Below, piece by piece: positions 8,784-62,503 of a stretch of DNA of 64,000 bases. The notes under the pieces were generated by a model. The model saw nothing but the letters and a program-made list of their open reading frames with translations. It did no database searches and was not told the origin of the DNA. This DNA is from Crossaster papposus (taxonomy: Eukaryota > Echinodermata > Asteroidea > Velatida > Solasteridae), in assembly GCA_037893245.1 (NCBI GenBank), contig JBAIAA010000702.1, positions 806,001 through 870,000 on the forward strand, in the 5' to 3' direction. The position numbers and the translations under genes are program-made. Position 1 is the stretch's first letter. Every line of letters begins with the position of its first letter.

Positions 8784-8956
8784 TAGGCCGAGTTCGGGCT
8801 GTCTGTTCTTGACAGGCGAACTCTGTTCTCGCGCTCGAACGGCGGGAACGCAACCCGTGAACATTGCACTCGGAACAAGAACACACACCACCTATCCATC
8901 AGGGTTTTGCAAGAACAAGTTACGCGTGTCAAGAACAGACCGCCCGAACTCGGCCA
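8784..8956. mobile_element. Tc1/mariner-like MITE with TA target (nest layer 2)
   Basis: Inverted repeats of about 30 bp, GGCCGAGTTCGGGC then TGTCTGTTCTTGACA against TGTCAAGAACAGACC and GCCCGAACTCGGCC. It is flanked by TA (8782-8783, 8957-8958). Removing it restores the ISL2EU terminus ATAAGGTCTA. Confidence 0.85.
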
Positions 8957-9043
8957 TAAGGTCTAATGTCGATCGGTTGATTTCAACAGGTGGCGCCCTG
9001 CGCTACGGCATACTGCCGGTAAGAAAGGGAGCATGCATCGGCC

Positions 9044-15466: not shown

Positions 15467-15708
15467 CAATTTCTTGGCTCTGCTTACCGTTAGCAAAAAT
15501 TCATGCTTATTGTAGCCGAAAATTATGTGCTTTCGGTAAGCGTATTTCACGCATTAGCGAGGAATTTTGGCTTCTCCGCATGCGTGCATCTCGTAACTGA
15601 GGATTCTGTGTTTACAGGGTTAGCACAGAATTTTTCTGCTGGCGTGGTTAGCACAAAAAGGTGATCACAAGCACGAATTCTGTGGTTAGCAGAGCCAAGA
15701 ATTTGGGC
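15467..15708. mobile_element. TTGGCTCTGCT MITE, copy 1
   Basis: Inverted ends AATTTCTTGGCTCTGCT and AGCAGAGCCAAGAATTTGGG. A related copy in opposite orientation lies at 32586-32852. Confidence 0.7.
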
Positions 15709-16132: not shown

Positions 16133-16242
16133 TCACTCGTTCATCATGGTTGTCTGTGGGCTGGTGGGCTGGCTGACTTCGGTTTGTGGAAGTTGGGATG
16201 GCAGCACTGGCACCGTCACGCACAGATCACATATCCAGGACC
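16133..16242 (-). CDS. DPF: DPF exon 9, last zinc ligands and C-terminus
   Basis: Encodes residues 360-395 and the TGA stop: GSWICDLC completes PHD2, followed by a tail rich in Pro, Ser, Thr and Gln that ends TTMMNE. Acceptor CTGTTAG. The 3' untranslated region must run into a TTAA MITE that begins 80 bp below the stop. Confidence 0.92.
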
Positions 16243-19200
16243 CTAACAGGAGAGAAAGGAGGTAGGTATTATACAATCTTAGTCCTACCTGTAAATCAAA
16301 GGGCCATTCAGTTGTACTTTCAGCAATGTTATTTATGCAATCACATGTCAGATTTGCACCACAGCAGTACACATTGGTCAAACTGGACAGTGACTCGGAC
16401 AACGTATGAACGAACACAAGTTTGATATCAGAAAAAAGGACATACGAAAACCTGTTGCCGAATACTTCAATTGACCAGCACCTGATTTCACTAAATTCTT
16501 GTAACTTACGATGCATCGCAGCCCTGCGACGCGTATCTCTACGATGCATCGCAGCCCTGCGATGCGTATCTCTACGACGCGTCGCAGCTGCGATGCGTCG
16601 TGAGTGTATTTATAGCAAAAAACAGTGACTGTTGTATATGGGTCTTTCCATAAATAAGGGGGCCAAAGCAGGACATGGTGTTATTTCTCAAAATGTAATT
16701 TACTTTCTATATTCTTTGCATGTTCGTATGGTGGGGATAGCTCATACGTTTAATGTATAACTTCAATTTCTTGAATCAGATGTTTTGTTTTCATATACGA
16801 TCCAAAACTATCCATCACACTGTAACGGAGACACCGGTGTCTCAGTTACAGTGTGAAGTGTGAAACTTGTGACTTGTTTTGCCATAAATTAGTAGGTTTT
16901 CATTGAAAATTTTAATTTCAAAGGGTAATATGTAAACATCATTGGTATACTGTAATTCAGCTATTTTCAATGAAAACCTTCAAACGTTGGCCAAGCAGTA
17001 AAGGCCGACAGTTTTACGCGTAACCGTGACACTGGTGTCTTTGTTACACCGTGACTCAAAAAGTCCTGTCTCTCTTATTATGCATCATAAATGTCTGAAT
17101 CTAGCAAAGTGCATAGTAATACCTGCTACATGTACATGTATGTAGCATGTATTACTATGCACTTTGCTAGATTCAGACATTTATGATGCATAATAAGAGA
17201 GACAGGACTTTTTGAGTCACGGTGTAACAAAGACACCAGTGTCACGGTTACGTGTAAAACTGTCGGCCTTTACTGCTTGGCCAACGTTTGAAGGTTTTCA
17301 TTGAAAATAGCTGAATTACAGTATACCAATGATGTTTACATATTACCCTTTGAAATTAAAATTTTCAATGAAAACCTACTAATTTATGGCAAAACAAGTC
17401 ACAAGTTTCACACTTCACACTGTAACTGAGACACCGGTGTCTCCGTTACAGTGTGATGGATAGTTTTGGATCGTATATGAAAACAAAACATCTGATTCAA
17501 GAAATTGAAGTTATACATTAAACGTATGAGCTATCCCCACCATACGAACATGCAAAGAATATAGAAAGTAAATTACATTTTGAGAAATAACACCATGTCC
17601 TGCTTTGGCCCCCTTATTTATGGAAAGACCCACATACCTATTCAATGCACAGTAAATAGCCATCTGGTATTCAGCAAAGAGTCGTCAAATCTTTTCTTGG
17701 TAGGCTTAAAAAATGTAAATCAAAATGGCCGACGTATGATGCAGTTTTAAAGAAAAACAAGCTTGCTGTGGACCTTTAGCTAATTTGAAATTTCAAGTGC
17801 ACTATTCATAGTTTATTCATAATGACTACGATGATTGTTTCATTTACAACTTCCCACACATTGTCCGAGTATTCTAGTCTCATTTATTTTATTTTTATGG
17901 CGCATAACTGGCTAAAAAATATTAGAAGACGATCGACCCAAAGACACGTCGTAACTTACAACTTGTTTCAAACCGTTGTCAAGGTAGTTGAGATGTGTTC
18001 AACGCATAGCAAGTTTCGTGAAATGGATTGTGGCAGGCCACACAAAAAGTCAGTTTCAGTACATACATGTAGCTGTACTCCAACACATGGGATTAAAATC
18101 AACTACATGTTGGTCTTAATAGGGATCAGGGCTTTTTGTCAAACTACACCATTAATGATTGATCACCACCCTCTGTTATAAACCTTGTATGATGATGCCC
18201 CTCTTTATTGCATCTGATGAAGGAGCTGTACATTGTACGTGTACATTTGTAGAGCCTACGAAAGCTAAATGCACTTACATTCTAGTTGATCATTTTATTT
18301 TAGTGCTATCTTTACTTAAAAAATTGCACTGTAAAGATATTAATGACTCTAAACTCCCTGTGAAATTACTTGTGGCATGCTGTCATTTTGCAAAAAAAGA
18401 TTAAAAGCTCTTGAAGTACATTTTTTGTATAACAGTTTTAAGAGTTGAAGGACAACAAAAGTAGGAAAAGTAGGAAACTGTAGGAATTTCCTAAAACAAG
18501 AATGGTTTTCAAACCACGAGTCTCGCCTATTTTCGTGATTACCCTATTTTACAACTTGACTTCAAATGACATTTGACATCACCATCACATGGAAGTTTGC
18601 ATATTGCATCTATGACCCAAGTTGCAATTGGACTAAAAGTATTCAAATGAGACAAGTTTTGCAATTCAAGCTTATTTAAGAACTTCACCTCAAATGACCT
18701 TTGACACAACAGCTTATAAAAGTTACAATATTGCACGGATGACCGTAATGCAAGTACATGTATAATTGAATTTGGAATTGGACTTCAACTTTGCACATAT
18801 AAGACCAATTTTTCCAAACTTTAACCAAAATGACACATACATGTACATGTACAGACTGAGTGAATGTACACGTACACGTGGACAGAAAGTGACTGCATCT
18901 CCCTTTCTAAACTCAGTTGAGGCAAGACAAAAAGTAGGGAACGGTAGGATTTTCCTGAAGAAGAAGAAAGTAGTTAAAGGTAGGATACACCATTTGCAGA
19001 TATTAAAAAAGATTGTAGGCATCCAGCAAAATGATTGCGCTAGATATCCTGTAATTGTTCAAAAAATAGAATTATATATAAAAATGATATATAAAAATTT
19101 ACGATAGCCGGACGGCGATCACAAAAACAACATAAGAACTGCTCTACATGTAGGCACCGGTTGAAAACAAATGCCGTTTTTTCTTGCTTTTTTTCTTGGT

Positions 19201-22200
19201 ATCATGATTGTAGATTGTAAAACTTCGGACAGGCCAGTTAAAGGTAGGATACACCATTTGCAGATATCGAAAATATTTACTACCGAATTATTAAGAAATA
19301 TCTTACTCATCTGAAAGTAAATGTTGATTCGGGGCATCCAGCAAAATGATTGCGCTAGATATCCTGTAATTCTTCCGAAAAAAAAAATTTTATAATGAAA
19401 AATTCGCGATCGCCGGACGGCGAGCGCGAAAAACAAAGATAACATAAGAATAACTGCTCGATGCCGGTTGAAAAAAACCCGCTGTTTTTCGTGCTTTTCT
19501 CGGCATCCATGATTCTAAAACTTCGGACAGCTCAGTTAAACGATATTTACTATAAAATACAACCCCCCAAATCTACTCATTCATGATAATTCAAGCAATG
19601 ACCAATGGTGTATACTACCTTTAAACGATATACTATAAAATACAACCCCTCCAAATGCACCCATTCCTGATAATTCAAGCAATTACCAATGGTGTATTCT
19701 ACCTTCAAAGTGAGAGCAAAGTGAAAAGGAACAAAAACAGCAAACCGGAAACAATTAAGAAAAGTAGGAATACTTCAAAGCCTTCAAATAGCGATCAAAT
19801 AATCTTTTGTTTCCTGTTGGCCACTTTAGGTCATTCATTCATTCATACCAACAAAACAAATTAGAAAGATACTTGTACCTTCAGGTGGGGCAGACATAGG
19901 GGGTTTAAGGCAGTACATATGGTAGCCTCGATCACAGTCATCGCAAAACAGCAGCTGATCCTGAAAACATTAAACAAAAACAAAAAACACCAAAAGTACA
20001 AATAAACTACTACAAAAGTTGTCGGCCAAACATTCCACCATCAACTGAAAATTATATACATGTACAATGTACCTTGTGTGGACATTCCTTTGAATTTGTG
20101 AAGTTAAGAATCATAGACCAAATTTCAACAAAATACTAATTTTCCTCACACCATGAAAATTATTTCAACTCACATTTGTACAGGTCTACACAAATAAACC
20201 ACATTTGTGACTGTATACCCTAAAGTGTTCCTCTTTACTTTTCCCAAATAGCCCTATATAACCCCAAACCAATTTTTCCTTTATCAAAAAGGGAGAAATC
20301 TTGTGTGGACGTGGCCAAGTCCACAGATGGTTTTTGGTTTGTGTATTTTGTGGAAATATTTTGTTTGCGAGGTTGGTACACGAATACCTTCCATGCGTAA
20401 TGTAAACATTCCTTTGTATTCATGTACATGTATATGTAGCTAAACAAAATGTTGGCTGAATACTCTTTATTCTCATTTCCAGAAGAAAAAGAAATTGAAC
20501 CCCAAAATTTGAATACACCATTTCTTCATATTCTTCTTGATCTTCTATTACATTGTAGCATGCAAGTACGGTACATTGCCAGTTACGCAGCACAGTCAAA
20601 CAATTAACATACACGTGAAAACAATTTTAGCAATTTTACCAGATATAAATTCTGTCCCCACAAAACAAACACAAACAAAACACCATTCCTCTCAAAAGCC
20701 AACAAGGGTCAACAATCTTCAAAGGGGATGTTCCACATGCTTGGTAGTATGGGGTGATAATCTGGATGAAAACCACAATTTTGAAATATGATTACATCAA
20801 CTTCAGGGCCAATGCATTGGGTCTGTTGTGGAGATATTTTGCGTAGGAAGTGGATACAGTGCATCTAGCATGAAAATATGGCAGTTGCCATAGAATTGTC
20901 AGCCCTTTCAAAACCTTTAAAGTTTGCTGGACTGAAGGGTTTTAAAAGGTAAAACCAGGAGGGTTAAATTGCTAAATATAAATGACTTGTTTATCCCTTT
21001 TATTTAAGTCATTTATATTTAGCACTAATACCTACTGAGCGTGTAATATGGATTTCATATACAGATTTAGTTTTTGGACTGGGGTGGTTTTTTTTTTCAT
21101 ACTAAATACCCACTTTCTATGCAAAATATCACCCAAATGACACAATGTATCTACAATGCATCACCCCTGAAGTAGACGTTAATCATAATCCAAAATTGTG
21201 GTTTTCATCCCGATTATCACCCCATACTACAGGTACCCTGGCCAGACTCCATAGACAAATATGATCACATGACATCCCATGTTGAGAAAAATAGTCTTAC
21301 AGAACCTGCTTCATAGGTAAAAATGTGTCTCGGTGCATAATGCATTGCATAATATGCCTATGAATGAGGTCGCTGTATTAAGCAATGCCATTTGGGGTAC
21401 ACATACATACACACAAAAACAAGGTTATTGATAAAAGTCGACATGTCGCTGCAATACAAGACAAACATTACATTTCTTTGTACAATCTTTTATTGTTGGA
21501 TTTTCATACACCCGACCCAAAATTCCAAAAAGTTTCTCTAATTAAAAAACTACCGAGCACGTTTCGACCAATTAATAGAGAAATTCATGAGGATTGTAGC
21601 CACACTCTATTTTCCCCAAAATAGGTCACCCTACATGTAAGTCCTTCCATTGCAAAAACTCAAAGAATCGCATTTTGTTTGCAAAGATTCGCATTTTGTT
21701 TGCAAAGATTCGCATTTTGTTTGCAAAGATTCGCATTTTGTTTGCAAAGATTCGCATTTGTTTTTGCAAAGATTTAGTCTAAAAAAAAAATCACCCCAAA
21801 ATCAGACACACTGTAAAACTCTAAAATCAGATATTAACTAACAGAAAATGTAGAAAGTTATTTTACCAAAAATATCTAGCTGATAAATAATATCGAACCA
21901 GTTATTTGATTACAATGTGGTAATAACTCATGTGGTCCACTAAAATACAAGTACAGGCTGCACGTGTGTTTATGGGAGCCAACACGCTCTATTCCCCATA
22001 TTGGAATCTGACCCTGTATTGGCTAAGCATTGTTCTAACTTTAATTGGGTAATAAGATTAATTAATAATTGGGTAATAAGACATTCACGTGCAGAAATCG
22101 GTGTTTTTAACCAGTTCGCGCCAGGATTATTTTAACATATCACCAAGCCGACACGTGGAATTATTTTTAACAAAACTTGATCAGAGGCGGGTTCAGGCCG

Positions 22201-25200
22201 ATAGTACCGGGAAGCACACCCACGTATTTCCGGCTTTACTCTGGCGTGTTATTGCGCCATCCGCTTTGAATCTGGGAAAAACTTTGCGTTTATATACGTC
22301 ATCCCGCGCAAACTGGTTAAAGGCTTAAAAAATATTTCCCCAATGGAAAAAAAGGGTGTATTTTTGTGTGTGTTCAAGGCAACCACAAAAATTTTGAATA
22401 CAAAATTTGGTCGTTAACAAATGTCAGGGTTGAGTATTCTTCACGTAATTTCTTACTGGACTAATAGCACGATGTGATTTCAACGAAAGATTTCCAAAAT
22501 CACATCTAAATGCTCCCTATCCTGGGTCATGTCGTCAAAGTCCAAATTCACATCCACTTGATGTGAATTTGCATTTTAACGACTTTGAAAGAGGATGAGA
22601 ATTTGGAGCATTTGAATGTGATTTTAGAAATCTTTTGTTGAAATCACATCCTGCTAATAAGGACTACATGTATGTCCGCTTTGAATGCAAAATCACATCA
22701 TGCTCACTCCTATAGTGTAAACTGCTCTAGCGTTGGTAGCCGGCAAATGGCATTTTTACAGTGCCGTAATTCACATAAACACTTGCTTTATTGAGAGTCA
22801 CATTACATTGACCTTTAACCTTTTGACCTCAAATTGGATATATCTTGACCTCATTGGAGATTGCAAAGGGTACACATGTTCATGTCATGCCGATCAACAC
22901 TAGAAAAGGGCATGATGTGATTTTGCATTCAAAGTGGACATGGTCCTTAGCAGGATGTACTTTTCAACAAAAGATTTCAAAATTCACAACCAAATGCTCC
23001 AAATTCACATCCTCAGTCTAAATTGACATCCTGGGTAATACAGTACATGTCAGTAGTTGAGATTTAAATTCACATCTACATATGTACATGTACTTATAGA
23101 TTTGAAAATCTTTTGTTGAAATCACATCCTGCTAAGGACCGTGTCCACTTTGAATACAAAATCACACCATGCCCTCTCCTAGTGCAAGCTTTCAATTTTT
23201 TTCTACACAAAAACAACTAAACAGGGATTGGCAAGAATGGGTGATGGAAGAGAAATGGATGATTTTGATTGGAAATACATGCCTCCGAAAATATTTTCAG
23301 CAGGCAAATGGTGAAATACTTTAGATGCTACTTCGTTAAATTTGGCCTTTGCTTGCCTACACAACCAGTTACCTACATGTACGAACATTTCCTACATGTA
23401 CGTACTGTAGACCTGCGAACAATTGACATTCACAGGACGCGGAAAGAGGTTACGAATTGTGGATTGCACACGTACACGGTCCGTTTCGCCCTTTCTAAAA
23501 AAAAGCTTTAGAGGAAAAAAAGGGGTTAGGGTTATCCACAAAAAAATGAAAGGGAACACCTGGTGAGGGGCATTGCATAGAATAAAAAATTGGGTTCAAA
23601 TTCTTTTTTTCTGGAAGCAAGAAACATGAGTATTTTGCCACGTTTTCTCAACTACACAAATACAAAGGAATGTCCACAGTACATATTAAAGGACTGCGTG
23701 TGTGTATGCATGTGTTTTTGAATAGAGACAATTATTTGTATTTTCCAGTGGCACACTGGTAGAATTTTGGCAATGAAGATGAAATTACTGAATTACATGT
23801 ATTTATAAAATATCACAGCGATTCCCGTGTGGATGAAAATGTAAACTGGATTTAGCACTTTTTAGGACAAATACTTAAATTCACATCCTGGGTTATAAGT
23901 AGATGTGAATCTCGTGGATGTGAATTTGAATCTTAAAGACTTTAACCCAGGATGTGAATTTGGAATGAGGATGTGAATTTGGAGCATTTGGATGTGATTT
24001 TGGAAATCGTTTGTAAAAATCACATCCTGCTAAGGACCATGTCCGCTTTGAATGCAAAATCACATCATGCCCATTCCTAGTGTGTTATCATCTAGGGTAC
24101 AAGGGTAAAACTTACATCATTATCTGATGTACCGCACAAGCCGCAGGATTTGCATTCAATGCACTGCCAACGGTAGCTCTTGACTTTGGCCGTGATGTTT
24201 TCAGTGAATTGGAGGCAGGACGGATGGCCTGTGTGAACAACATGTGAGGCAACAAATGAATAAGCGTGACGAGAGACTAAACTGAGACTGTGACCAAGAC
24301 TAATCTCTGGAGATGAGTGTGTGTGCGTTTGTTTTTGATTGAAATAGGGGACGTATGACAAAGGGAACAATGGGGTCCCCTATTCCGCAAAGGTCCCCGA
24401 TTCAGACTCGTGTGCAAATCCTATGGAGATCATCAGAAAACGTTAGAGTACAAACAAAAGAGGGAAGACGGTCGGACAATGCCCCGTCCCCTATTGACGG
24501 CATTTACCCACTTGCGTGCGTGTGTGTATGTATGTTGAAGGAAAGGGGAGGGGGGAGGGGAGTTGGGTGAGCTTAAGGGTAGTGCACTGTGCAGTCGTTG
24601 GTCAGGTACATGTATACATGTATGTATGTAGTCAAAATCATCATACTAGGTCCTTTCAGTTCTAAGTCGAGGTTGACTTCTCTACCCCTAAGTTGCGACA
24701 CCCCTGTGTTGCGACACCCCTGTGTTGCGACACCCCGTATGTTGGACACCCCTACATGTATGTTGCGACACCCCTACATGTATGTTGCGACACCGCTACA
24801 TGTATGTTGCGACACCCCTATGTTGTGACACCCCTATGTTTCGAGGGGAGAGAGACAGACCTACAGGTACATCGGCATTTTGAGTGTCAACTTGCGTTAT
24901 TCGCATCAGCTGATGATAAAGAAAATGTTTGTCTGTCAGGGGATTGTATCAAGTCACCCCCTGGCCGCTTAACTCCAGATTGTTGTTATTTAACTCATTC
25001 TTTTATTTTTTTTCCACTGGTAACTTTTTTTAACATGTAAACAATACAAACTTTAAAACTACGGGAGCACGGGATCTCACTAGTAACAAATAAACTTGAA
25101 TAACTCTTACATAATCCTTATTTTCATGACTTTTCCAGGACTTTTTTATTTTTCGCAGTTTTCCATGACTTTTTAGGACAATTTTTCTTTCCATGACCTT

Positions 25201-52200: not shown

Positions 52201-55200
52201 TACATGTAACTTATTTGAGGTTTATATATGCCTTAGGTTCGATTCCAATGAGGTTCCTATGAGGTTCTGGTTCCTATGAGGTTCTGATTCGTATGAGGTT
52301 CCTACAGGTTTTTTGGGGGTTCTGTACGTACTTCTTTGAGGTTCCTATAGCTACATGTAAGCCTCAAGTTCAAAACACATATGTATGAGGTTCATTTAGG
52401 GTTGATATACCGGTACCTTCCCTCGCCCTCGCCTCTTGCGTGCGGAGACCTCAAAGTCTTCGTCACTCTCATCCGAGTGGTTTCTTTCAATCTCTCCAGC
52501 ATCTGGGATGTCGTCAACAGCCTCCATCTCACGGAACAGTTCTTCCTGCTCTCTGTCTGCCAAAGGCATGCTGGATGTCTCGGGATGAGGATGATCTGTC
52601 TCGCTAAACGCACCTTGTACAGTGTCCGGGATGTCAGCCCCATCTGTTTGTTTTGAATAAAGCATGAGGAAAGCGGATTATGCCAATGAATATGCCTGAA
52701 AATAATGACTTCAGGGTTGCGGGAGCTATCAAGATCCCATTAGAGAGACACATTTAGACAGCTTGGGTGTGCTGTCATTATGTTTTAGGTTTACCATGTA
52801 CATGTATTAGCAACTTATATGAACACGTGACCAACATAAACTCAAGTAATCGCCCTACAGGTACTGTACCTTTCCCTACCATGGCAGTGTCATTATCATA
52901 CAAGACCTTTGTTGAGAGAAAGTTATAAGTACAAAGTCACCTACCGATAGATTAACCCTTCCAGTCTCCTGCACTTTGCAACCCTTTTGCTCACAGAATT
53001 AACAACCACACTTTATACATTATTCCTTTGAGGTAATCTTGTATTTAATGATGAAACCCTTGCAGGATTCTTTTGTGTGGTTAATAAGATCAGGGCAAAC
53101 AGTGGGGACTGTCTCAGGACAACTCGTTTCGCAGTTAAATCCAAGTTGAACAAAACAGTTACGCTTTGGTACAGGTACCGGTACATGTATGTTTATAGGA
53201 CTGCAACTTGCCTGTCGCACCCTGTTGGAGCTGGACATACAAGTTGCTGGAGTCAGCCAGGGGTGCATGGTGGGGCTTCCGCTTCTTTCTCCACCTCCTA
53301 GACGGGTAGGTGTATAGCTGGCCCTCGTTGCTGCCCGGAAAGCGGTGCCTTTTCTGCATCCACAGGAAGCAGTTGTTCTGAGCTACCCCGGTCTGCGAGT
53401 CCAAAAACGGCAGTCTCATTCTACGCTCGGCCACAAGGCGGGTGTTGAACGAGGCAGCATTTTCTGTCGCCTCACGGTAAAACTGCTCATAATCACTGTG
53501 AACATCCAATTATCCATATAACAAAGAAAATAAAAGTGCATAATTCATAAATGTAAAAGTACATGTATATGTACATGTACATGTACATGAAAATAAGTTC
53601 CATTGTACATTTACAAAAAGTATCTTCTTGATTCTTCTTGTTGTTTCAATTTTTTCAAACCATGCCAACGCAACTTGAACATTCGTGCGGTTGGCAGAAC
53701 ATCACGAAGGGGCTACATACGGTATGTACAATGTACCGGTAGCTACCGGTAGAGTAACGCCAGCTTTAACCCTAACTCCCTACACAACAAAGGAAGTTGG
53801 AGGATTTTGAAGGAATTGTATTGTTCAATAACAATGGTGAGGGAGTTAGGGTTAAAGGAAACAAGCAGTCTAACATCTTCATTACGCATTTTTTGTTTTA
53901 AATCAATAGTTTTATGTGTATCAAATGTGAATAAAAAGCAAAACTGGTTCTAGTGTACGTTTAGTGTGGTAATTTGCCGTCCAAAAATTGACCCCCCCTT
54001 TTTAAATTTCGCGGCCACTCAAAATGAGTGACGTAAATCGAGTCAGAACCCGGACAAATTATCGATAGTCGGTACGCGACGTCTAGGTACGAGACAGGTT
54101 CGCGTGGCCACGTACGCACACATTGTTGTGTGTATGAGAGTGTACGAATCCCGTACGCCTTGTGCACACGTACGTACATGTACATGTAAACGCGATCACC
54201 CACACGCACGCTGTCCAAAGCAAAGGATACCGTACAAAGTACATGTACATGTACAGTAATCGGCGCGGACTAAACATGGACGATCGTGAAAGTTCTTTGT
54301 CGGTTTTTAGTGATTCTGACGAAAACAGTACAGATTCGTCTGATTGGAATATCGTTGGGACAGCATCTGACTTCAGCATGTTTTTTAAGGGCATGCCAAA
54401 GTTGCTGTACAGACCAGTGTCGAAGCACGACCGCTCAAAATGGTCGCTGCAGATCGGGCCGAAAAATCACTAGGCCCGGCGGGACCACTTCGCTCTGGTA
54501 AGCTTTACTTTGGCTGTCCAAATCCTCCGATATTTAGGATCAGCCGGAAACAAATGAAGGCTTACTCCATCCTTGGTAGTTTTGCTACACCCAGCAGCTA
54601 CACATCTAGTCGGCATGACTGAAAACAGTTGTATTTTTACCCTGATTTAGAATAAAAAACCGGCATGGTAAACTTGTAAACAAAGACTTGTTGCATGCAA
54701 TGCGCGCATAATGCAAGCCAGGCCCGGGTAGCGCCCCCCCGCAGTGAGGCAATTCTCTGCCTCGATTTTTGTCATACCCCACGCGAAGTTTTATGTTAAT
54801 GAGGCTTCCCTTTGAGGGGCGGAGTGGTATGACTAAACATTTTCAAAAATTATTTTCTCCCATTTATCACAGAAAATAAACACAACCTCACACATAATGT
54901 TGTTGTCAATATGACACTTTATTGATTTAAGCAAAAAAAAAACTTATTACATGTTTCCTTTAAAGGGAAATTCCAGGCTCAATAATATTTTAATATGATT
55001 TGTTATCGAGAACGACTCACGCGCCTATTATATTCAAGATTTCTTGCCATTCAGGAGTACAAGGGCGCGTCCATATTGTTCAAATTTCCCGCCTCATCAG
55101 GGACATTATGACGTAGTGTCTGCACCTTATTGCGTGTTGTTCGCACTAGTATCCTACCATGACGTGGCCAACTACATGTACATTATGCATACCTACCGTA

Positions 55201-58200: not shown

Positions 58201-61189
58201 CGCGTACAACAGCGATACAAAGCTGGCCCGTACTATGTGGCCTTTTTCTAAACGTTTTTTCGTCTACGTTCCGGCTTCATGCAATTCACCATCCGAACTA
58301 CACAGCGCGGAGCATTCACAACGACTGGAAAAAAGACTAGGGGGTGTCGCAATTAGGGATACCATGCACGCGATCGCTGCATGTGATATGTACATGTGCA
58401 TGCAGTTTATACTGCAGTGATACATGATATGTATCGGCAAACCTCGTGCGATATTGTGACTACTGGTTTGAAGTTTTCATACATTGTTTGCGTGCCAGAT
58501 AAACTCAAGTACTCAGCAAATTCTTGCTTGGAATAGTGGGATCCTTCTAAGGCAACAAAATGACCCCTTTGTGGCGATGTACCTACACCGGGTGGCGCCT
58601 GGTGTTCTTTTGGGTGCGTTCAAGCATGCGCCTTATTCGGCAGTGCGCTTTATCTGTTGACGTTTGAAATTTTTTGGGGTGATTTTAGGGACCTGCGCCT
58701 TAACCGCCGTGCGGCTTTACCGCAGGAAATTACGGTAATACCTACCTGGCAAAAAATGCAGTAGTCCAGCCTTGACCCGGCCATTGTGTCCCAAGTGACA
58801 ATTTTTGCTGTAGAGTTTAGAACACCTTACACAGCATACATGGGCCATGCACACTCAGCAAGCAAAGGGACATTTACACACAACCTCATTTTCTCGTGCC
58901 GGTCGCGGGGCCGAGCAGAGGATCCTCAAAATCCCCTTTCATATGACGTTATTTCTTTTTAAGAAACATACACAAAGTTTGATTGACATACAAGTAGTCA
59001 TGAGTCTGCCAATTGGTTTACATGTATTTTGTTTTGATTGTGAACATGTGAAGATATTGGAAGTACAGTACAGTAATGGTACATCTAAATCTAGTCCGAG
59101 TAACAAGAACCCAAATATCGCTTTTTTTAACATCTGGATGATCTTGCGATAGTAGGGTCCTAGGGAGTCCCATTGGTTTTTCTACATTTAAATCAAAATG
59201 TCACTTTTCCCATACATGTATGTTTGCCCAAAGAAACATCCGTTTTCACCCTCAAAACGGCCACAAAAGTACTCGATAAGCCATCTGATACAAGTACACA
59301 TCGAGGAATAAGATTGTGCTACTAAGGTTCACTAACGATTTGGATAAAAACAATTTCAAGCTTAATTCCGCAAGCTGCTTCGGCTTTTTGCTGCCGTGTC
59401 GGTATGCGATGCATGTTGCTACCACGCGCATACCGACACGGCAGCAAAGTGCCGAGGCAGCTTGTAGAATTAAGCTTGAAAATGTATTCGATTTTTATTC
59501 GTAAGTAAACCTTAGTACATGTACCACAATCTTATTCTTTGATGTGTACTTGTATCTCAGATGGCTTATCAAGTACTTTTGTGGCCATTTTGAGAGTGAA
59601 ATCGGATGTTTCTTTGGGCAAACATACATGGGACTAGTGACAATTTTGATTTAAATGTAGAAAAACCAATGGTATTCCCTAGGACCCTACTATCGCAAGA
59701 TCATGTCCAGATGTTAAAAAAGCAATATTTGAGTCCTAGTTACTCGGACTAGTCTTAATCAGCCTTCACTTTTTGCTAAATAAAAAAAACGTCATCAAAA
59801 TCATTATAATTTTTTAGTCCGAGTAACTTGGACCCAAAAATCACCTTTTTCAACATTTGGACATGGTCTGGTGATATTATTAGGGTCCGAGCAAGCCCCG
59901 TTGGCACCGTTGTACGAAATGTCTGCACATCGATTTCCCCACACCTCCCACACTTTTCCCCAAAAATGTCACGGAAAACGGCCACTTACAAAAATGCTGC
60001 TTGTTGTCTCCAGTAGGCACTTACTAGGATCAATAAAGACACTAACACTATCGGTGTGTTCTTACCTTTTAAAAAAGTGAGAAAATCGGGCCTCAAAATG
60101 TGGAGCGATGTTCGCCGATTCAAATGCACGTAATCATTGTTGGGCAAACTCATGACGTCATTCTTGTTGACAACAGCGTCGCGCGCAGAGCGCGCTCGCA
60201 TAGTCAGCGGCTGTTACCTGTTTCGTGCACTGTGCTGTAGTGGATGGCTCTCGAGCAAACCACCCATCCACTACAGCACAGTTCAGCGGCTGTTACCTGT
60301 TTCGTGCACTGTGCTGTAGTGGATGGCTCTCGAGCAAACCACCCATCCACTACAGCACAGTTCACGAAACAGATAACAGGATTAACAGCCGCTGACTATG
60401 CGAGCGCGCTCTGCGCGCGACGCTGTTGTCAACAAGAATGATGTCATGAGTTTGCCCAACAATGGTTACGTGCATTTGAATCGGCGAACATCGCTCCACA
60501 TTTTGAGGCCCGATTTTCTCACTTTTTTGAAAGGTAAGAACACACCGATAGTGTTAGTGTCTTTATTGATCTAGGCTTAGTGCCTACTGGGGACAAGCAG
60601 CATTTTTGTAAGTGGCCGTTTTTAAGTGACATTTTTGGGGAAAAGTGTGGGAGGTGTCACTGTGGGGAAATCGATGTGCAGACATTTCGTACAACGGTGC
60701 CAACGGGGCTTGCTCGGACCCTAATATCACCAGACCATGTCCAAATGTTGAAAAAAGGTGATTTTGGGGTCCAAGTTACTCGGACTAATAATTTTTTATA
60801 TATTTTTTTTTAACTTAAATTAAAGTTAAATGAAGGCGAGTAAAATATTTGTCTCTCCTAATCATGCTAATCCTATGATAATATATGTTATCACCTCTCG
60901 GTGTGTTTAAATCACCTTGGTAAAACTGGAATGCTGAACAGTGGCCCGAAATGTTGCATTTTACCCTCCATATAGCATAACTGGTTTAGGTATTTTTCTG
61001 CATAGTACATATAAACCAAACCAAAATCAACATGTTCAAAACCTTAAGTTCAAGTTCAAGTCATCCGATAGCACGAGACAGCATAGATATTACTTAAAAA
61101 ACGAGTCGGTCTTATTTTGTGTTTTCTATTAGGTTACAAACACAGACAATAGGCCTGTCTTACCTGTTTTTGCGAGAAAGTCCCGACAT
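16133..61189 (-). CDS. DPF: DPF/requiem (d4) family double PHD finger protein, nine coding exons
   Basis: Coding exons (minus strand, in order): 61189-61164, 53495-53212, 52643-52417, 51242-51149, 33055-32933, 26693-26565, 24228-24116, 19960-19879, 16242-16133. They total 1188 bp, 395 residues plus stop, close to vertebrate DPF2. Seen in the translation: requiem N-domain (about 9-90) with [13 protein letters not shown] and RRWRKKRK; acidic linker (105-175); C2H2 finger (C209, C212, H225, H228 or H230) with [17 protein letters not shown]1 (C267, C270, C288, C291, H296, C299, C317, C320); PHD2 (C323, C326, C338, C341, H346, C349, C364, C367). All zinc ligands are present. Known of the family: nuclear BAF45 subunit of SWI/SNF (BAF) remodellers, whose tandem PHD fingers read the histone H3 tail, including acylated K14. 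Introns range from 568 bp to 18 kb and are full of transposons, yet every splice phase fits, so I infer a functional gene. Whether it is DPF1, 2 or 3 cannot be told; an invertebrate probably has one. Confidence 0.95.
16515..16605. repeat. Short tandem repeat rich in GATGCATCGCAG / GACGCG
   Basis: About two and a half copies of a 36-bp unit (TACGATGCATCGCAGCCCTG...CGTATCTC). Confidence 0.7.
16637..17634. mobile_element. 998-bp near-perfect palindromic element in DPF intron 8
   Basis: Arms of about 490 bp are almost identical inverted copies. I found two differences: one inside (CGC against CAC near 17020) and one at the outer edge. The centre near 17135 is TACATGTACATGTATGTA. Outer ends T(A/G)TGGGTCTTTCC are flanked by TA (16635-16636, 17635-17636). 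Each arm holds two smaller hairpins around GAGACACCGGTGTCTC and GACACTGGTGTC. No coding region. Confidence 0.85.
17637..18530. other. Intron sequence, no feature seen
   Basis: Open frames at 17822-18181 and 18159-18404 show no recognisable motif. Confidence 0.4.
18545..18740. repeat. TCAAATGAC(A/C)TTTGAC repeat
   Basis: Two related blocks (18558 and 18690) with CTTCA(C)CTCAAATGACCTTTGAC. An old dispersed repeat without visible ends. Confidence 0.45.
18978..19703. mobile_element. TTAA-MITE (AGGTAGGATACACC family) hosting a second copy of itself
   Basis: The outer copy starts after TTAA (18974-18977) and ends ...GTGTATTCTACC near 19703. It is interrupted at its own internal TTAA by a complete second copy (19242-19620). 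Confidence 0.88.
19242..19620. mobile_element. TTAA-MITE, complete inner copy (379 bp)
   Basis: Ends AGGTAGGATACACCATT and AATGGTGTATACTACCT, with TTAA at 19238-19241 and 19621-19624. The outer copy resumes immediately with ACGATATACTATAAAATAC. Confidence 0.92.
19879..19960 (-). CDS. DPF: DPF exon 8, PHD2 core
   Basis: Encodes residues 333-360: [20 protein letters not shown] then PMSAPPE. This is nearly letter for letter the vertebrate DPF PHD2. Acceptor TTTTCAG, donor GAAG then GTACAA. The ORF is only 27 codons, so ordinary ORF calling misses it. Confidence 0.95.
20744..21230. mobile_element. Inverted-repeat MITE in DPF intron 7
   Basis: Ends GTAGTATGGGGTGATAATC and GATTATCACCCCATACTAC, with about 60 bp of paired arm (GATGAAAACCACAATTTT). 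A second hairpin, TGCTAAATATAAATGACTT and its complement, lies at 20971-21030. Confidence 0.8.
21660..21775. repeat. 21-bp minisatellite
   Basis: Five copies of GATTCGCATTTTGTTTGCAAA. Confidence 0.93.
22111..22316. mobile_element. TTAA-flanked CCAGTTCGCGCC MITE
   Basis: Ends CCAGTTCGCGCC and GCGCAAACTGG; TTAA at 22107-22110 and 22317-22320. Inside GATTCAAA..CGGATG-type sequence shared with the other copies. Confidence 0.9.
22455..22715. mobile_element. CACATCCTGG palindromic MITE, copy 1
   Basis: Contains GATGTGATTTCAAC..AAATCACATC and facing complements; the same family recurs at 22898, 23875, 25890 and 26735. Confidence 0.65.
22898..23184. mobile_element. CACATCCTGG palindromic MITE, copy 2 (most complete)
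   Basis: Ends CACTAGAAAAGGGCATGATG and CCATGCCCTCTCCTAGTG, then facing copies of TTTGAATACAAAATCACA / TGTGATTTTGCATTCAAA. Target duplication not resolved. Confidence 0.8.
23875..24085. mobile_element. CACATCCTGG MITE, truncated copy beside DPF exon 7
   Basis: Has the right half of the family ending CACATCATGCCCATTCCTAG, 30 bp from the exon 7 donor. Confidence 0.7.
24116..24228 (-). CDS. DPF: DPF exon 7, end of PHD1 and start of PHD2
   Basis: Encodes residues 296-332: [25 protein letters not shown] and the PHD2 opening [10 protein letters not shown]. Acceptor CACACAG, donor GAT then GTAAGT, phase 0. Confidence 0.95.
24327..24516. repeat. Dispersed repeat with GTCCCCTAT ends, copy 1
   Basis: About 180 bp match 50649-50826 in the same orientation. 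An inner inverted pair ATAGGGGACG / CGTCCCCTAT marks a likely small MITE. Copy 1 has an extra 18 bp. Confidence 0.8.
24693..24845. repeat. Minisatellite GTTGCGACACCCCT(ACATGTAT)
   Basis: Eight or so units of 16 or 24 bp, with or without an ACATGTAT insert. Confidence 0.88.
25040..25880. other. DPF intron 6 sequence, no element resolved
   Basis: Contains CATGACTTTTCCAGGACTTTT-like words (25125-25205), a dispersed motif; otherwise nothing recognised. Confidence 0.4.
25890..26115. mobile_element. CACATCCTGG MITE, copy 4
   Basis: Begins AGGAAAGGGATGATGTGATT and ends CACACCATGCCCTTTCCTA; palindromic but diverged. Confidence 0.7.
26565..26693 (-). CDS. DPF: DPF exon 6, first half of PHD1
   Basis: Encodes residues 252-295: a lysine-rich start, then [12 protein letters not shown] and [12 protein letters not shown], the first four cysteines of PHD1. 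Acceptor ATTTTTAG, donor ATCAG then GTAGGC. The glycine codon is split G|GC, as in DPF genes where GRSG and HPSC lie on separate exons. Confidence 0.95.
26735..27037. mobile_element. CACATCCTGG MITE, copy 5
   Basis: Begins AAAAGGCATCATGTGATTTT and ends CACATCGTGACATTTCCTAG. It lies only 40 bp upstream of the DPF exon 6 acceptor. Confidence 0.75.
27130..27345. repeat. TCACAAGTCCTT inverted/tandem repeat
   Basis: Left part has two 31-bp copies of CACAAGTCCTTTCGTGAAG; right part has GGACTTGTGATGGACTTGCA in inverse sense. A related segment lies at 26170-26350. Confidence 0.6.
27593..27795. mobile_element. TTAA-flanked CCAGTTCGCGCC MITE, right end lost
   Basis: TTAA at 27589-27592, then CCAGTTCGCGCC. 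The inside matches the copy at 33546-33769; the right terminus has run into the minisatellite that follows. Confidence 0.8.
27796..28515. repeat. About 42-bp minisatellite, some 16 copies
   Basis: Unit like AACCCTGGATATCCTGGGTG followed by CAGGTCTGAAGGGGTGTGATTG. On the minus strand 27804-28298 stays open for 164 codons because the period is a multiple of three ([14 protein letters not shown] repeats). It lies in DPF intron 5; not a gene. Confidence 0.92.
28520..29070. other. DPF intron 5 sequence, no feature seen
   Basis: No coding region and no repeat family recognised. Confidence 0.4.
29077..29532. mobile_element. Foldback element with about 200-bp arms
   Basis: Left and right halves are inverted copies: GTGTTGATGAGG against CATCAACACT, AAACTGGCTTGTCC against GGACAAGCCAGTTT, and so on. 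The halves are noticeably diverged, so it is old. Confidence 0.75.
29656..29972. mobile_element. TTAA-MITE (AGGTAGGATACACC family)
   Basis: Begins AGGTAAGATACACCATTTGC and ends GGTGTATCCTACC with TTAA at 29973-29976; left TTAA eroded. Its right half lies in the first unit of the tandem duplication. Confidence 0.85.
29874..32299. repeat. Direct tandem duplication, 2 x 1213 bp
   Basis: Unit 1 is 29874-31086 and unit 2 is 31087-32299. Reading both units line by line I found no difference. The breakpoint shows microhomology TTC(GG)/TTTC. The unit contains half of one TTAA-MITE, one whole inverse TTAA-MITE and unique intron sequence. Confidence 0.95.
30036..30407. mobile_element. TTAA-MITE (AGGTAGGATACACC family), inverse orientation
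   Basis: Contains ACACCATTGATAATTGC, GGCGTCGGGCAG, GGATATTTTGTAGC and ATCAGCAATTGGTGTATCC; TTAA at 30408-30411. Duplicated at 31249-31620. Confidence 0.8.
32586..32852. mobile_element. TTGGCTCTGCT MITE, copy 2
   Basis: Ends GGACCCAATTTCATGGCTCTG and CAGAGTCAAAAAATGGGGCC; the inside matches 15467-15708 in reverse. It ends 80 bp from DPF exon 5. Confidence 0.75.
32933..33055 (-). CDS. DPF: DPF exon 5, C2H2 zinc finger
   Basis: Encodes residues 211-252 with [20 protein letters not shown], the hallmark DPF Krueppel-type finger, followed by a Glu/Ser/Pro linker. Acceptor CATTCTAG, donor CAC then GTAAGT. Joined to exon 4 the finger reads C-K-V-C as expected. Confidence 0.94.
33105..33520. mobile_element. 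hAT-like element with TAGGGCTGTGCAT end
   Basis: Ends TAGGGCTGTGCAT and ATGCACACCCCTA, then CCGGGTAC and its complement. An 8-bp duplication is not recognisable. Similar in plan to 47900-48963. Left end is 50 bp upstream of DPF exon 5. Confidence 0.65.
33546..33769. mobile_element. TTAA-flanked CCAGTTCGCGCC MITE
   Basis: Ends CCAGTTCGTGCC and GGCGCGAACTGG; TTAA at 33542-33545 and 33770-33773. Confidence 0.92.
34190..34376. mobile_element. Small MITE with CAGTTCATACT ends
   Basis: GCTAGTTCATACTTCACGC against GCCGAGTATGAACTGGCC with paired AAGCGAATGC/GCGTTCGCTT. Confidence 0.65.
34380..35280. other. DPF intron 4 sequence, no element resolved
   Basis: Scattered ACATGTAC and ACCGGTAC words; open frames look accidental. 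Confidence 0.4.
35285..35545. mobile_element. MITE with TTTCACACT ends and a 36-bp perfect palindrome
   Basis: GGTGCTTTCACACTGTT against ATAGTGTGAAAACGCC. Inside, AATCTCGGGGTTGGAACC is followed directly by its exact complement (35305-35340). Confidence 0.75.
35700..36330 (+). pseudogene. THAP-domain transposon fragment, copy 1
   Basis: From ATG at 35804 the plus strand reads [36 protein letters not shown], then after a frame change near 35945, [14 protein letters not shown] and a stop. This is the C2CH zinc-binding plan of a THAP domain (C, C, W, then C..H). The AVPTIF box is missing. THAP domains head P-element and some ISL2EU/PIF transposases. Copies at 54000-54720 and 56870-57170. Confidence 0.8.
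36355..36745 (-). pseudogene. CR1/jockey-type LINE reverse transcriptase fragment
   Basis: Minus strand: INDLPDF-like ([14 protein letters not shown]), [17 protein letters not shown], then [18 protein letters not shown] and [18 protein letters not shown], the sequence that follows the YADD catalytic site in CR1/jockey/Rex-type LINEs. A frame change sits near 36565. Both ends missing. Confidence 0.82.
37180..39060 (+). mobile_element. Tyrosine-recombinase element (fossil, Crypton- or DIRS/Ngaro-type)
   Basis: The core-binding part (about 37838-38030, with [11 protein letters not shown] and [12 protein letters not shown]) and the catalytic part (about 38510-39060, with [31 protein letters not shown] and the tyrosine before VKDS) are present in order. 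The arginine, HxxR, H and Y landmarks of tyrosine recombinases are all visible. A 75-codon frame at 37180-37407 may be an accessory gene. Broken, with a handful of breaks, and split by a TTAA-MITE (38052-38427). Family undecided because no RT or terminal repeat is seen. Confidence 0.75.
38052..38427. mobile_element. TTAA-MITE (AGGTAGGATACACC family), complete, 376 bp
   Basis: Ends AGGTAGTATACACCATT and AATGGTGTATACTACCT with TTAA at 38048-38051 and 38428-38431. Inserted in the tyrosine-recombinase gene. Confidence 0.95.
39470..42840 (+). mobile_element. Ty3/gypsy LTR retrotransposon fossil (gag, protease, integrase remnants)
   Basis: Gag-like sequence begins about 39736 ([20 protein letters not shown]), a protease-like block is near 41690-41950 ([11 protein letters not shown]), and an integrase C-terminal part is near 42340-42800. 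Reverse transcriptase and RNase H are not seen and are presumed deleted. A TATA-less stretch 39470-39735 may hold the end of the left LTR; no right LTR was found. Clearly broken, with many breaks (more than ten), so old. An 803-bp TTAA element is inserted in the gag part. Confidence 0.72.
40222..41024. mobile_element. TTAA-flanked CCAGTTCGCGCC element, long form (803 bp)
   Basis: Ends CCAGTTCGCGCC and GGCGCGAACTGG; TTAA at 40218-40221 and 41025-41028. The ends match the 205-245-bp copies, but about 570 bp of extra sequence lies inside, without a recognisable gene. Either a longer parent form or a copy with an insertion. Confidence 0.88.
43315..44420. repeat. Tandem array, about 410-bp unit, 2.7 copies
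   Basis: ACCCAACGGGTTCGCCCGG recurs at 43321, 43738 and 44142 (spacing 417 and 404). Within each unit a sub-repeat of about 60 bp (GGTTGTCATACGAATCTGAC with GAATTTCCTCAGTTCGACGA) occurs two or three times. Copies differ by few bases and one 12-bp pyrimidine indel. Confidence 0.93.
44420..45160. other. No feature seen
   Basis: Some TGCGCA-rich words (44505-44590) and a poly-G run at 44855; no gene or repeat family recognised. Confidence 0.4.
45286..45356 (+). CDS. Possible small exon upstream of the arginine-rich region
   Basis: A strong acceptor (GTTTTTTTGCAG) and donor (AAGAG then GTAAGAG) frame about 69 bp that is open as [17 protein letters not shown]. Unknown protein; support is splice signals and openness only. 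Confidence 0.3.
45423..46904 (+). CDS. Unidentified CpG-rich, arginine-rich coding region, split by an insertion
   Basis: An open frame from ATG 45420 gives [20 protein letters not shown] and [18 protein letters not shown] second frame from about 45600 gives [37 protein letters not shown] and [11 protein letters not shown], stopping at TAG 45943. After the 803-bp element the same frame resumes in the second target copy (46746) and runs [40 protein letters not shown] to TAG near 46902. The frame match across the insertion argues that this was protein coding. The RESEL(P/T)L motif occurs twice. Composition is far more CpG-rich than its surroundings. I do not recognise the family; host pseudogene or gene of another mobile element are both open. 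Confidence 0.4.
45943..46745. mobile_element. MULE-like element, TAG ends, 9-bp target duplication
   Basis: Ends TAGACTTGATCCAATTCGG and, inverted, TAGACTTGACCCAAGTCGG. A perfect 9-bp duplication CCCTCCGAG (45934-45942, 46746-46754). An inner inverted pair CGACTTGACGGAT / ATCCGTCAAGTCG is also present. No transposase. Confidence 0.88.
47014..47170. repeat. 50-bp tandem repeat, three copies
   Basis: TAGTCATGGAGTGCGTGAGC recurs at 47014, 47064 and 47114; a fourth start (TAGTCAT) is at 47164. Confidence 0.95.
47335..47400. repeat. CTCGTGCTC...GAGCACGAG hairpin
   Basis: A self-complementary stretch (about 47357-47392). Its GCCCTATCGCGCGAGCACGA part is the exact complement of a piece of the arginine-rich region near 45625-45650. 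Confidence 0.7.
47900..48963. mobile_element. hAT-type element, 1064 bp
   Basis: Ends TAAGGGTGTGCG and CGGCACGGCCTTA with a perfect 8-bp duplication GAGGTAAC (47892-47899, 48964-48971). Sub-terminal CGGGTACCCGGGTACCCG repeats at both ends. No transposase frame recognised. Confidence 0.9.
48972..50640. other. DPF intron 4 sequence, weak repeats only
   Basis: Two AAATGG(C)NGCC..TTTTGGANNCCATCTT blocks (49165-49200, 49352-49390) look like an old duplication; the rest shows no feature. Confidence 0.4.
50649..50826. repeat. Dispersed repeat with GTCCCCTAT ends, copy 2
   Basis: Matches 24327-24516, flanks included, with a few changes and an 18-bp gap; about 320 bp from DPF exon 4. Confidence 0.85.
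51149..51242 (-). CDS. DPF: DPF exon 4, linker into C2H2 finger
   Basis: Encodes residues 180-210: [15 protein letters not shown] continuing to [10 protein letters not shown], supplying the first zinc ligand of the C2H2 finger. Acceptor TATTTCAG, donor AAAG then GTAAAT, phase 1. The valine at 211 is split across the next intron, which is about 18 kb long. Confidence 0.9.
51759..52010. repeat. 12-bp minisatellite GGTTCCCTGTGA, about 20 copies
   Basis: Nearly perfect units GGTTCCCTGTGA; open on the plus strand as RFPV repeats only because 12 is a multiple of three. Lies in DPF intron 3. Confidence 0.97.
52011..52105. repeat. 24-bp minisatellite GGTTCCCTATAGGGGCCCTA
   Basis: Four copies, continuous with the 12-bp array. 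Beyond it, decayed GAGGTTC words continue to about 52350. Confidence 0.92.
52417..52643 (-). CDS. DPF: DPF exon 3, acidic linker with basic tail
   Basis: Encodes residues 104-179. It is rich in Asp, Glu and Ser (DESDEDFEV) and ends with ARKRRGRGK, like the acidic stretch plus lysine/arginine patch before the zinc finger in DPF2. Acceptor AAACAG, donor AAG then GTACCG, leaving phase 0. It lies just beyond a 12-bp minisatellite in intron 3. Confidence 0.88.
53212..53495 (-). CDS. DPF: DPF exon 2, requiem N-terminal domain
   Basis: Encodes residues 9-104. The translation runs [20 protein letters not shown], then [19 protein letters not shown], then [16 protein letters not shown], an unmistakable match to the DPF N-terminal domain. 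The acceptor is TTCACAG. The donor is ACAG followed by GCAAGT, a GC-type donor. A GTATGT in-exon alternative about 30 bp earlier gives a wrong phase and a stop, so the GC donor is preferred. Confidence 0.93.
53550..53600. repeat. (ACATGT)n microsatellite
   Basis: Short run of TACATGTA(C) units, one of many such palindromic words in the window. Confidence 0.8.
53955..54720 (-). pseudogene. THAP-domain transposon fragment, copy 2
   Basis: Minus strand from ATG 54616: the first C-x-C half and [10 protein letters not shown]-like part lie at 54540-54616, and [20 protein letters not shown] lies at 54310-54370. The AVPTIF box is the conserved end of THAP domains, so this copy keeps the domain's full extent. 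Frame damage lies between. The antisense frame 54276-54471 on the plus strand is a shadow. Confidence 0.78.
54961..55696. mobile_element. Possible TTAA-flanked element
   Basis: Starts TTTAAAGGGAAATTCCAGGC and ends GGGTGGAGTTTCCCCTTAA; the ends are imperfect inverted copies next to TTAA. An AAAATGGCGGC word with an ATG and a GTAAGC donor-like site lies at 55547-55575; unproven as an exon. Confidence 0.4.
56190..56425. repeat. TTTGGAGGAATGAGGCTGAATGGGG tandem repeat
   Basis: Three units of about 47 bp (GAGGATTTTGGAGGA, TGAGGCTGAATGGGGTTTT), with inverse half-units at both edges. Confidence 0.8.
56670..57170 (+). pseudogene. THAP-domain transposon fragment, copy 3
   Basis: From ATG 56992 the start of the THAP domain ([18 protein letters not shown]-like) is readable, with damage. 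Upstream 56670-56990 is the inverted counterpart of 54680-54975 (CATTTTGTGTGTGGTTGTG against CACAACCTCACACATAATG), so copies 2 and 3 share the same 5' flank and belong to one family. Confidence 0.75.
57180..57823. other. DPF intron 1 sequence, no feature seen
   Basis: AT-rich; nothing recognised. Confidence 0.4.
57826..58735. mobile_element. TA-flanked element with CCGTAATTTCC ends (910 bp)
   Basis: Ends CCGTAATTTCCTGCGGTAAA and TTTACCGCAGGAAATTACGG, flanked by TA (57824-57825, 58736-58737), the mariner/Tc1 target. No transposase seen. Hosts a smaller element at 58048-58183. Confidence 0.85.
58048..58183. mobile_element. MULE-like MITE, TAG ends, 9-bp target duplication (136 bp)
   Basis: Ends TAGTCTTGTTTGCAAGACG and CGTCTTGCAAACAAGACTA; perfect 9-bp duplication CAGCGTGCG (58039-58047, 58184-58192). 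Inserted in the CCGTAATTTCC element. Confidence 0.92.
59092..59751. mobile_element. Foldback MULE-like element, TAGTCCGAG ends (660 bp)
   Basis: Arms of more than 250 bp pair around a centre near 59415 (CTGCCGTGTCGGTATGCG and its complement). Flanks ATCTAAATC / GTCTTAATC match 7 of 9, an eroded 9-bp duplication. Confidence 0.88.
59815..60787. mobile_element. Foldback MULE-like element, TAGTCCGAG ends (973 bp)
   Basis: Ends TAGTCCGAGTAACTTGGAC and its complement; perfect 9-bp duplication ATAATTTTT (59806-59814, 60788-60796). Arms of about 400 bp. The centre holds a 79-bp direct repeat (CAGCGGCTGTTACCTGTTTC...) in two copies (60213-60370), each with its own hairpin. Confidence 0.93.
60800..61160. 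other. DPF intron 1 next to the candidate first exon
   Basis: AT-rich, no element recognised. Confidence 0.4.
61164..61189 (-). CDS. DPF: DPF exon 1 (candidate start exon)
   Basis: A minus-strand ATG with A at -3 opens eight codons (MSGLSRKN) and ends in ACAG followed by a strong GTAAGA donor. It leaves two bases (AG), which the first base of exon 2 (T) completes to serine, so the phase is exact. Vertebrate DPF proteins have about 14 residues before this junction. The residues themselves do not resemble the vertebrate MAAVVENVVKLLGE, so this is chosen on phase, start context and donor only. Another first exon outside the window is possible. Confidence 0.5.
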
Positions 61190-61341: not shown

Positions 61342-62233
61342 CAGAGAGAGGGGGGGGGGGGGGGCGGAGGGGGGGGCGGAGGGGGGGGGGGGGGGGGTCG
61401 GACGGAGGGGGAAGGCGGAGGCCTGGGGGGAGGCGAAGTGCTAGTGGGGCCCTTCGAGGCTGTGATTGCGAAAATCTGTCGTACCGTCCATTCTCAAAAT
61501 AGGGGGGAACAATTTTCTCACGCGAAAAATACAGAGTTTTTGGCATCTAATCTAAGTTGTTATTTACCTTAATTTGTATCATCCAATGACAAAAATTGTA
61601 TTGAAAATGAAAAAAGCAGTCGAAAAAAATAAACGTTGACGTACCGTTGATGCATGTGGAGCTTGTGCACAAATACCCAAACGACGTTAAAAGGATCGTA
61701 TACGTTTGGTAATTATTCCAAAAATTAATGGCAATAAAAACTTACTTGGTAAGAAGTACAGGAGCTTTGGATAGTATAATGCATTTTAGAAACTTTTCAC
61801 TTTGAAGTACTGCGGTTATGAAAAAAGATATCATTTTTTATCCCCAAATATTTGAATCTGAAAAGCGTTACTGCAGTGACGTTTCTCAGATTGTGTATTC
61901 CAATGCAGATTATTCTTCATGCGTGAACATAACCGCTCCAGATTTTCGGCAATATCTCAAAATCTCTATCACTTTTTGAAATGACATTTTGTACAGGATT
62001 GAAACAAACAGTGGGTTCCAATTACCAAACGTATACGATCCCTTTAACAAATACCTCCCCTAAAAAGGGCAATAATAAATTGTGAAAAATCCTGCTTCGA
62101 ACCCACTAATTGTTTTCCATGGATACGTTAAAAAAGGATGTAGCAGTGATATATTGAATTTAAAAAAAATCTGTCTGTGAACCCCGTGCGTTTTATCGTG
62201 TTGTTTTCGAACGAAAATGGCAGAAAATGACAT

Positions 62234-62264
<31 letters not shown>

Positions 62265-62503
62265 CCGTGTAGATCGTGCCTGTGTACCTGCTTTGCGGAC
62301 ATAGCGGATATCACTGAATTCGGAAGCAATGCCCGGATCCGGAGCTCATTGGGTGCAAATTTGTACGTGTTTCAATGTTGCGCATCGAGGTAGCGATATC
62401 TATACGTATTTGTACATTATGTACATATTTTTATGAGATGTGCGGCTCGTGAGCGTGGAAAAAGAATGAGATACATTTCAACGTTGGTGGCGCACTTTGT
62501 TGG
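61342..62503. mobile_element. Poly-G hAT element, third copy, right end lost
   Basis: Starts CAGAGAGAGGGGGG with about 100 bp of G-rich sequence, then follows 9044-9782 block by block to GGTGGCGCACTTTGTTG (62503). The C-rich right terminus is absent. Interrupted by a TTAA element (61691-62043). Confidence 0.85.
61691..62043. mobile_element. TTAA-flanked palindromic MITE nested in the hAT copy
   Basis: Ends AAGGATCGTATACGTTTGG and CCAAACGTATACGATCCCT, flanked by TTAA (61687-61690, 62044-62047). The undisturbed relative at 9044-9782 reads through this point (ACGACGTTGACAAATAC), confirming the insertion. Confidence 0.9.

Follow-up and report, generated by a model that had tools for sequence, protein, structure and literature searches.

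The locus examined here raises the question of whether nine small exons, spread over 45 kb of repeat-bearing DNA from Crossaster papposus, make up an intact gene for a double PHD finger (DPF) chromatin reader or a copy that has fallen silent. The locus occupies the minus strand between 61189 and 16133 of the 64,000-nucleotide stretch that was analysed (the window). The answer proposed is an undramatic one. The locus very probably is a d4-family (DPF1-3, BAF45b/c/d) gene, in which nine coding exons would be spliced into one protein of 392 or 395 residues and the transposon copies residing in the long introns would be mostly neutral passengers.

Exon structure and splice borders

Human DPF2 served as the tblastn query and produced collinear minus-strand matches extending from 53488 to 16217. 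Exon 1 (61164–61189, 26 bp) carries the start codon and is the least certain of the nine; it was placed by frame and by its donor, and tblastn yielded no match to human DPF2 in it. Exon 2 (53221–53495, or to 53212 with the alternative donor discussed below) encodes the whole 2/3 (Requiem_N) domain, with a PF14051 match of 1.9e-37 and a tblastn match of 1e-29, and both of its alternative ends keep an open frame. Exon 3 (52417–52643; tblastn 0.056) encodes an acidic linker and a basic stretch and was placed by frame and phase. Exon 4 (51149–51242; tblastn 0.85), placed by frame, phase and the Cys position, encodes a further linker and the first Cys of the Kruppel finger. The remainder of that finger is on exon 5 (32933–33055, 123 bp, symmetric; tblastn 7e-9). 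Exon 6 (26565–26693, 129 bp, symmetric; tblastn 9e-13) encodes the C2C2 half of PHD1, exon 7 (24116–24228; tblastn 1e-15) the remainder of PHD1 and the start of PHD2, and exon 8 (19879–19960; tblastn 2e-13) the middle of PHD2, the exon 8 alignment extending back into intron 7. Exon 9 (16133–16242; tblastn 5.8), placed by frame, phase and a strong acceptor, contributes the last Cys pair of PHD2, the C-terminal tail and the stop codon. Exons 2, 5, 6, 7 and 8 are thus significant singly, and exons 3, 4 and 9 are weak on their own. Exons 4 and 9 are nevertheless required in the model because the former holds the first Kruppel Cys and the latter the last Cys pair of PHD2. A second DPF copy was sought by tblastn on both strands of the 64-kb window and none was found.

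The nine exons are collinear and phase-compatible, and they join in one open frame free of internal stops, as the preliminary description had stated. With a GT donor at intron 2 the spliced coding length is 1179 bp including the single terminal stop, or 392 codons. With a GC donor it is 1188 bp and 395 codons, which reproduces exactly the nine-exon model put forward before. Skipping of either symmetric exon, 5 or 6, preserves the frame. Coding bases account for 2.6% of the 45,057-bp locus and introns for 97.4%, matching the earlier estimate of about 97%. It is also true that ordinary ORF calling returns only fragments of the gene, although this is unremarkable and expected for any spliced gene.

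Splice sites were scored with a rough matrix of base frequencies. GC donors are rare and usually take the form CAG/GCAAGT (the slash marks the exon end). At intron 2 this donor, which closes exon 2 at 53212, scores 6.0 bits; 9 bp upstream of it lies a GT donor of middling strength, AGG/GTGCGA, which scores 5.3 bits. Both are in frame, 3 residues apart, and splicing may use one, the other or both. An enrichment of GC donors has been reported for alternatively spliced genes (PMC2490688). By the same matrix, several sites are weak: the acceptors of exons 2, 3 and 5 rank in the top 38%, 26% and 13% of all AG sites, respectively, and the donors of exons 3 and 8 in the top 9% and 10% of GT sites. 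The two splice sites of exon 6 are strong (top 0.9% and 0.8%).

The weak points of the gene model are exon 1, for which the basis is frame and donor strength, and the exon 2 donor. In the interval from exon 2 to the window end, nine combinations of an ATG with a donor of at least 7 bits, separated by at most 200 bp, fit the phase. This number, and the fact that the two candidate donors of exon 2 (GT and GC) score alike, lend some weight to the view that the gene is real and its model partly wrong, the start lying in another first exon and the intron 2 borders being different. Among the nine, however, the chosen exon 1, with its start at 61189, has the strongest donor (11.1 bits), and a third set of intron 2 borders (donor 53240, acceptor 52603) was rejected on poorer scores at both ends. 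A partly wrong model is considered unlikely, though not remote. A very short first coding exon would also fit the mammalian layout, in which the 2/3 domain is reported to lie on exons 2 and 3 (PMC11678306).

Protein domains and family assignment

Six Pfam families were listed for the 392-residue protein. DPF1-3_N (PF14051, Requiem_N, the 2/3 domain) matched at 1.5e-36, with 124.8 bits against a cut-off of 27.6, and PHD matched above its cut-off at 5.3e-20 in two stretches; the four others were weak and under their cut-offs. The Kruppel finger, C-x2-C-x12-H-x4-H from residue 206 of the spliced protein, conforms exactly to the consensus reported for the d4 family, Cys(X)2Cys(X)12His(X)4His (PMC11678306). 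Across the Kruppel and D4 stretches, 21 of the 23 Cys and His residues of the human protein are kept. The two changed positions are human C329, which is Ser here and likewise in DPF3, and human H372, which is Asp here. A reading of the PHD pattern suggests that neither is a zinc ligand, and on this reading the earlier claim that every zinc ligand is kept stands.

The search of solved structures gave 16 distinct sequences with matches of 1e-20 or better. The top matches are DPF2/ubi-d4 chains (9rl4_R, 1.3e-111; 6lth_R, 1.5e-111). Lower matches include DPF3 (6e-56, D4 domain only, with an alignment spanning residues 258–365 of the spliced protein), KAT6A (5e-41), KAT6B (4e-36) and PHF10 (1e-30). 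Assignment to KAT6 (MOZ/MORF) was rejected, the MYST acetyltransferase domain being absent among the six Pfam families listed. PHF10 was rejected as well, on 1e-30 versus 1e-111 for DPF2 over the whole protein and 6e-56 for the solved D4 domains of DPF3. The protein combines a 2/3 domain, a Kruppel finger and a C-terminal tandem PHD (D4) with its zinc ligands, and is a full-length member of the d4/DPF1-3 (BAF45) family, in line with the DPF identity first proposed. A search with exon 2 (91 residues) gave 22 pattern matches in viral and 55 in prokaryote contigs, none of them a relative by tblastn.

The ratio of observed to expected CpG is 0.59 in the exons versus 0.83 for the window. Low exon CpG of this kind is a pattern typical of methylated, widely expressed invertebrate genes. 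The locus has the look of an ordinary animal d4 gene, seemingly intact and presumably expressed, in a genome rich in repeats. Homology suggests a place for the protein among the subunits of a BAF (SWI/SNF) remodelling complex. Its Kruppel finger would serve protein contacts, and its double PHD finger would bind the histone H3 tail, favouring acylated K14 together with unmethylated K4. For DPF2 and DPF3, one pocket is reported to take acylated H3K14 and a second to prefer unmethylated H3K4 (PMC8538644).

Repeats in the introns and around exon 6

Self-alignment masks 30.3% of the window, or 31.1% when tandem arrays are included. Not one exon base lies in a repeat, and about 36% of intron bases (the sum of the per-intron figures) belong to repeats detectable from the window alone. 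Thirteen multi-copy groups have a member in the locus, three of them tandem arrays and ten dispersed or inverted copies; the largest group merges at least two families when read by eye. The introns had been described as filled with at least eight transposon families. The ten non-tandem groups, each a putative transposon family, agree with that number, and filling is shown for the stated 36% or so of intron bases.

The repeats nearest to exons 6 and 7 belong to one family, referred to as family A, with five copies between 22462 and 27040. Copies A1 (22462–22718) and A2 (22894–23188) were delineated by self-alignment. Copy A3 (23876–24085) ends 30 bp from exon 7 and the MITE-like copy A5 (26724–27040) begins 30 bp from exon 6, both by self-alignment and inspection of the sequence; copy A4 (25908–26115) is inverted relative to A5. 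A 21-base word of family A had no match in prokaryote genomes. It occurs in one IMG/VR contig, which is tailed-phage-like by our own reading of its ORFs and otherwise shows no similarity to the window at 1e-5; this occurrence was taken as chance. On the donor side of exon 5, a repeat at 32589–32842, with a second copy at 15469–15707, lies 90 bp away. On the acceptor side, a TIR-like element read by eye (33104–33521) lies at about 50 bp and has the ends CTAGGGCTGTGCAT and, inverted, GTAGGGGTGTGCAT. The MITE edges reported earlier at about 30–80 bp from exons 5, 6 and 7 are thus found at 30 bp for exons 6 and 7, whereas for exon 5 the donor-side distance is somewhat larger and the acceptor-side element falls within the range by eye.

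The closeness of repeats to exons was compared with chance by 5000 random placements of the nine exons outside repeats. Two repeat edges lie within 35 bp of an exon versus a random mean of 1.1 (P = 0.31), and six lie within 91 bp versus a mean of 2.7 (P = 0.04). Chance placement readily gives the two edges within 35 bp and less readily the six within 91 bp, so the closeness is at most weakly unusual and does not merit the emphasis it first received. Short conserved exons amid long repeat-bearing introns are usual in many animal genomes. The repeats stop short of the splice signals, presumably because insertions closer by were removed by selection.

The window holds several other features. Intron 8 contains a near-perfect palindrome (16634–17637) with two 498-nt arms, 3 mismatches and an 8-nt centre, for which a 1081-nt strand folds at −913 kcal/mol; it is either a foldback element or an assembly artefact. 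An exact tandem duplication in intron 5 (29874–32302; 1213-bp step, 1216 identical bases) is either very recent or an assembly error. Intron 4 contains a 405-bp tandem repeat (43319–44396; 2.6 copies, 96%) adjoining a stretch of 50% GC (44001–48000), intron 3 a 12-bp minisatellite of 31 copies (51754–52119), and intron 1 several inverted repeats (59091–60794), including 189-nt arms at 98%, along with a 79-bp tandem repeat of 2 identical copies. The region downstream of the gene holds a reverse transcriptase fragment on the plus strand (1954–2676; RVT_1, 2.3e-16) and a transposase fragment on the minus strand (10620–11165; DDE_Tnp_4, 2.9e-17). One repeat family, with copies at 8569–9780 and 12517–13040, has a further copy at 61425–62502, which starts some 240 bp upstream of the putative start codon and may contain or adjoin the promoter. 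Sixteen intronic ORFs were searched in Pfam for nested genes; at E up to 0.05, 11 were without a match and the other 5 each had a single one, below the Pfam cut-off. tRNA and Rfam searches at default settings gave no match.

The abundance of repeats and the several weak splice sites would fit a silent or decaying copy, its repeat-laden locus no longer expressed, with the working d4 gene residing elsewhere. Set against them are 392 codons over nine exons without a stop or frameshift, the conserved zinc ligands and the repeat-free exons, and a single d4 gene is reported for most animal groups outside arthropods and vertebrates (PMC11678306). A silent copy is regarded as highly improbable. An intact d4 gene with mostly neutral repeats is preferred. 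The open frame, the DPF2 and Pfam matches, the spacing of the Kruppel finger, the ligands, the absence of repeats from exons and the exon CpG were counted for it, and the basis of exon 1, the weak splice sites, the unsplit 2/3 domain and the six repeat edges within 91 bp were counted against it.

One group of repeats might be other than neutral. Exon 6 is the only one of the nine exons with inverted repeats of at least 60 bp on both sides within 1 kb, and it has two such pairs. In the first, 26732–26926 in A5 pairs with 25908–26107 in A4; in the second, the inner member at 26204–26364 has an inverted partner at 27126–27305. Within 2.5 kb, flanking inverted matches of this kind number three for exon 6, two for exon 7 and one for exon 4. 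Because the two pairs cross, one alone can form at a time. The A5–A4 pairing encloses exon 6 in five of eight minimum-energy folds (span of 1000 nt, 1500 nt or unlimited), whereas in the other three (span of 300 or 600 nt) A4 and A5 each fold on themselves. The A5–A4 duplex is predicted at −216 kcal/mol versus −183 kcal/mol for both self-folds combined.

As an addition to the preferred explanation, the inverted pairs could loop out exon 6 and so have made the first half of PHD1 switchable. A portion of the RNA would then lack that half and encode an in-frame protein with no working histone-reading PHD1, or else a circle of exon 6 would form. The double bracketing, the folds and duplex energies in favour of A5–A4 and the preserved frame upon skipping are consistent with this proposal, and flanking inverted repeats are said to aid back-splicing in mammalian cells (PMC4479058). 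However, the self-folded copies in three folds, the crossing of the pairs, the strength of the exon 6 splice sites and the local density of family A, which could make the bracketing an accident, all weigh the other way. Looping out of exon 6 is judged improbable, and the bracketing is a lead rather than a result; should exon 6 prove to be looped out, transposons would here, on a small scale, have given rise to an isoform of a chromatin reader. A fair acceptor, TTTTCAG, is also present in the repeat end next to exon 6, at 26729; it ranks in the top 5% of AG sites and lies 36 nt upstream of the exon 6 acceptor, in frame and open. An exon 6 starting there would add 12 in-frame codons.

Comparison with known d4 genes

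As it stands, the locus looks ordinary, a typical d4 gene of the single-copy type, and the preliminary description was right in what it observed, the GC donor included. The d4 genes of animals gain one more intact member with it, and its junctions, among them those of a possible GC-AG intron, can be used in annotation. Splice signals survive here close to repeats, even where, beside exons 6 and 7, only 30 bp of unique intron are left.

Human DPF2 (ubi-d4, BAF45d) has the same domain order as the protein described here, and 190 of 372 aligned positions are identical, with identities of 65% in the 2/3, 73% in the Kruppel and 76% in the D4 stretches; the C-terminal tail differs. KAT6A/B and PHF10 have the same kind of D4 domain but score lower, and the present protein possesses DPF1-3_N and has no MYST match. 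The 2/3 domain, which occupies two exons in mammalian d4 genes (PMC11678306), lies on one exon here. Isoforms without the Kruppel finger are reported to arise by exon skipping, and DPF3a-like forms to come from genes with three or four D4-domain exons (PMC11678306); the D4 domain here is on exons 6–9. A DPF3a-like form made by read-through of exon 6 was considered and set aside: the open frame continues over 45 codons of intron 6, but the nearest downstream AATAAA/ATTAAA in that intron is at 25801, more than 600 bp beyond the read-through stop.

For two introns, the position matches what has been reported for d4 genes (PMC11678306). Intron 4 splits the first Kruppel Cys pair, which is the site of the 14-residue exon of vertebrate d4 genes (PMC11678306); such an exon was sought in intron 4 and not found, the best candidate scoring 6, no better than any of 20 base shuffles (6 to 29). 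The 3' border of exon 6 falls in the codon that follows CGRS, at the donor right after the C2C2 half of PHD1 that is reported as conserved in d4 genes, including the single-copy genes of invertebrates (PMC11678306). Single d4 genes are described for non-bilaterians, molluscs, nematodes, echinoderms, hemichordates and lancelets (PMC11678306). Of these, LOC106077827 of Biomphalaria glabrata (381 residues; PMC11678306, Table 2), compared on its reported features, resembles the present gene in its full domain set and similar length.
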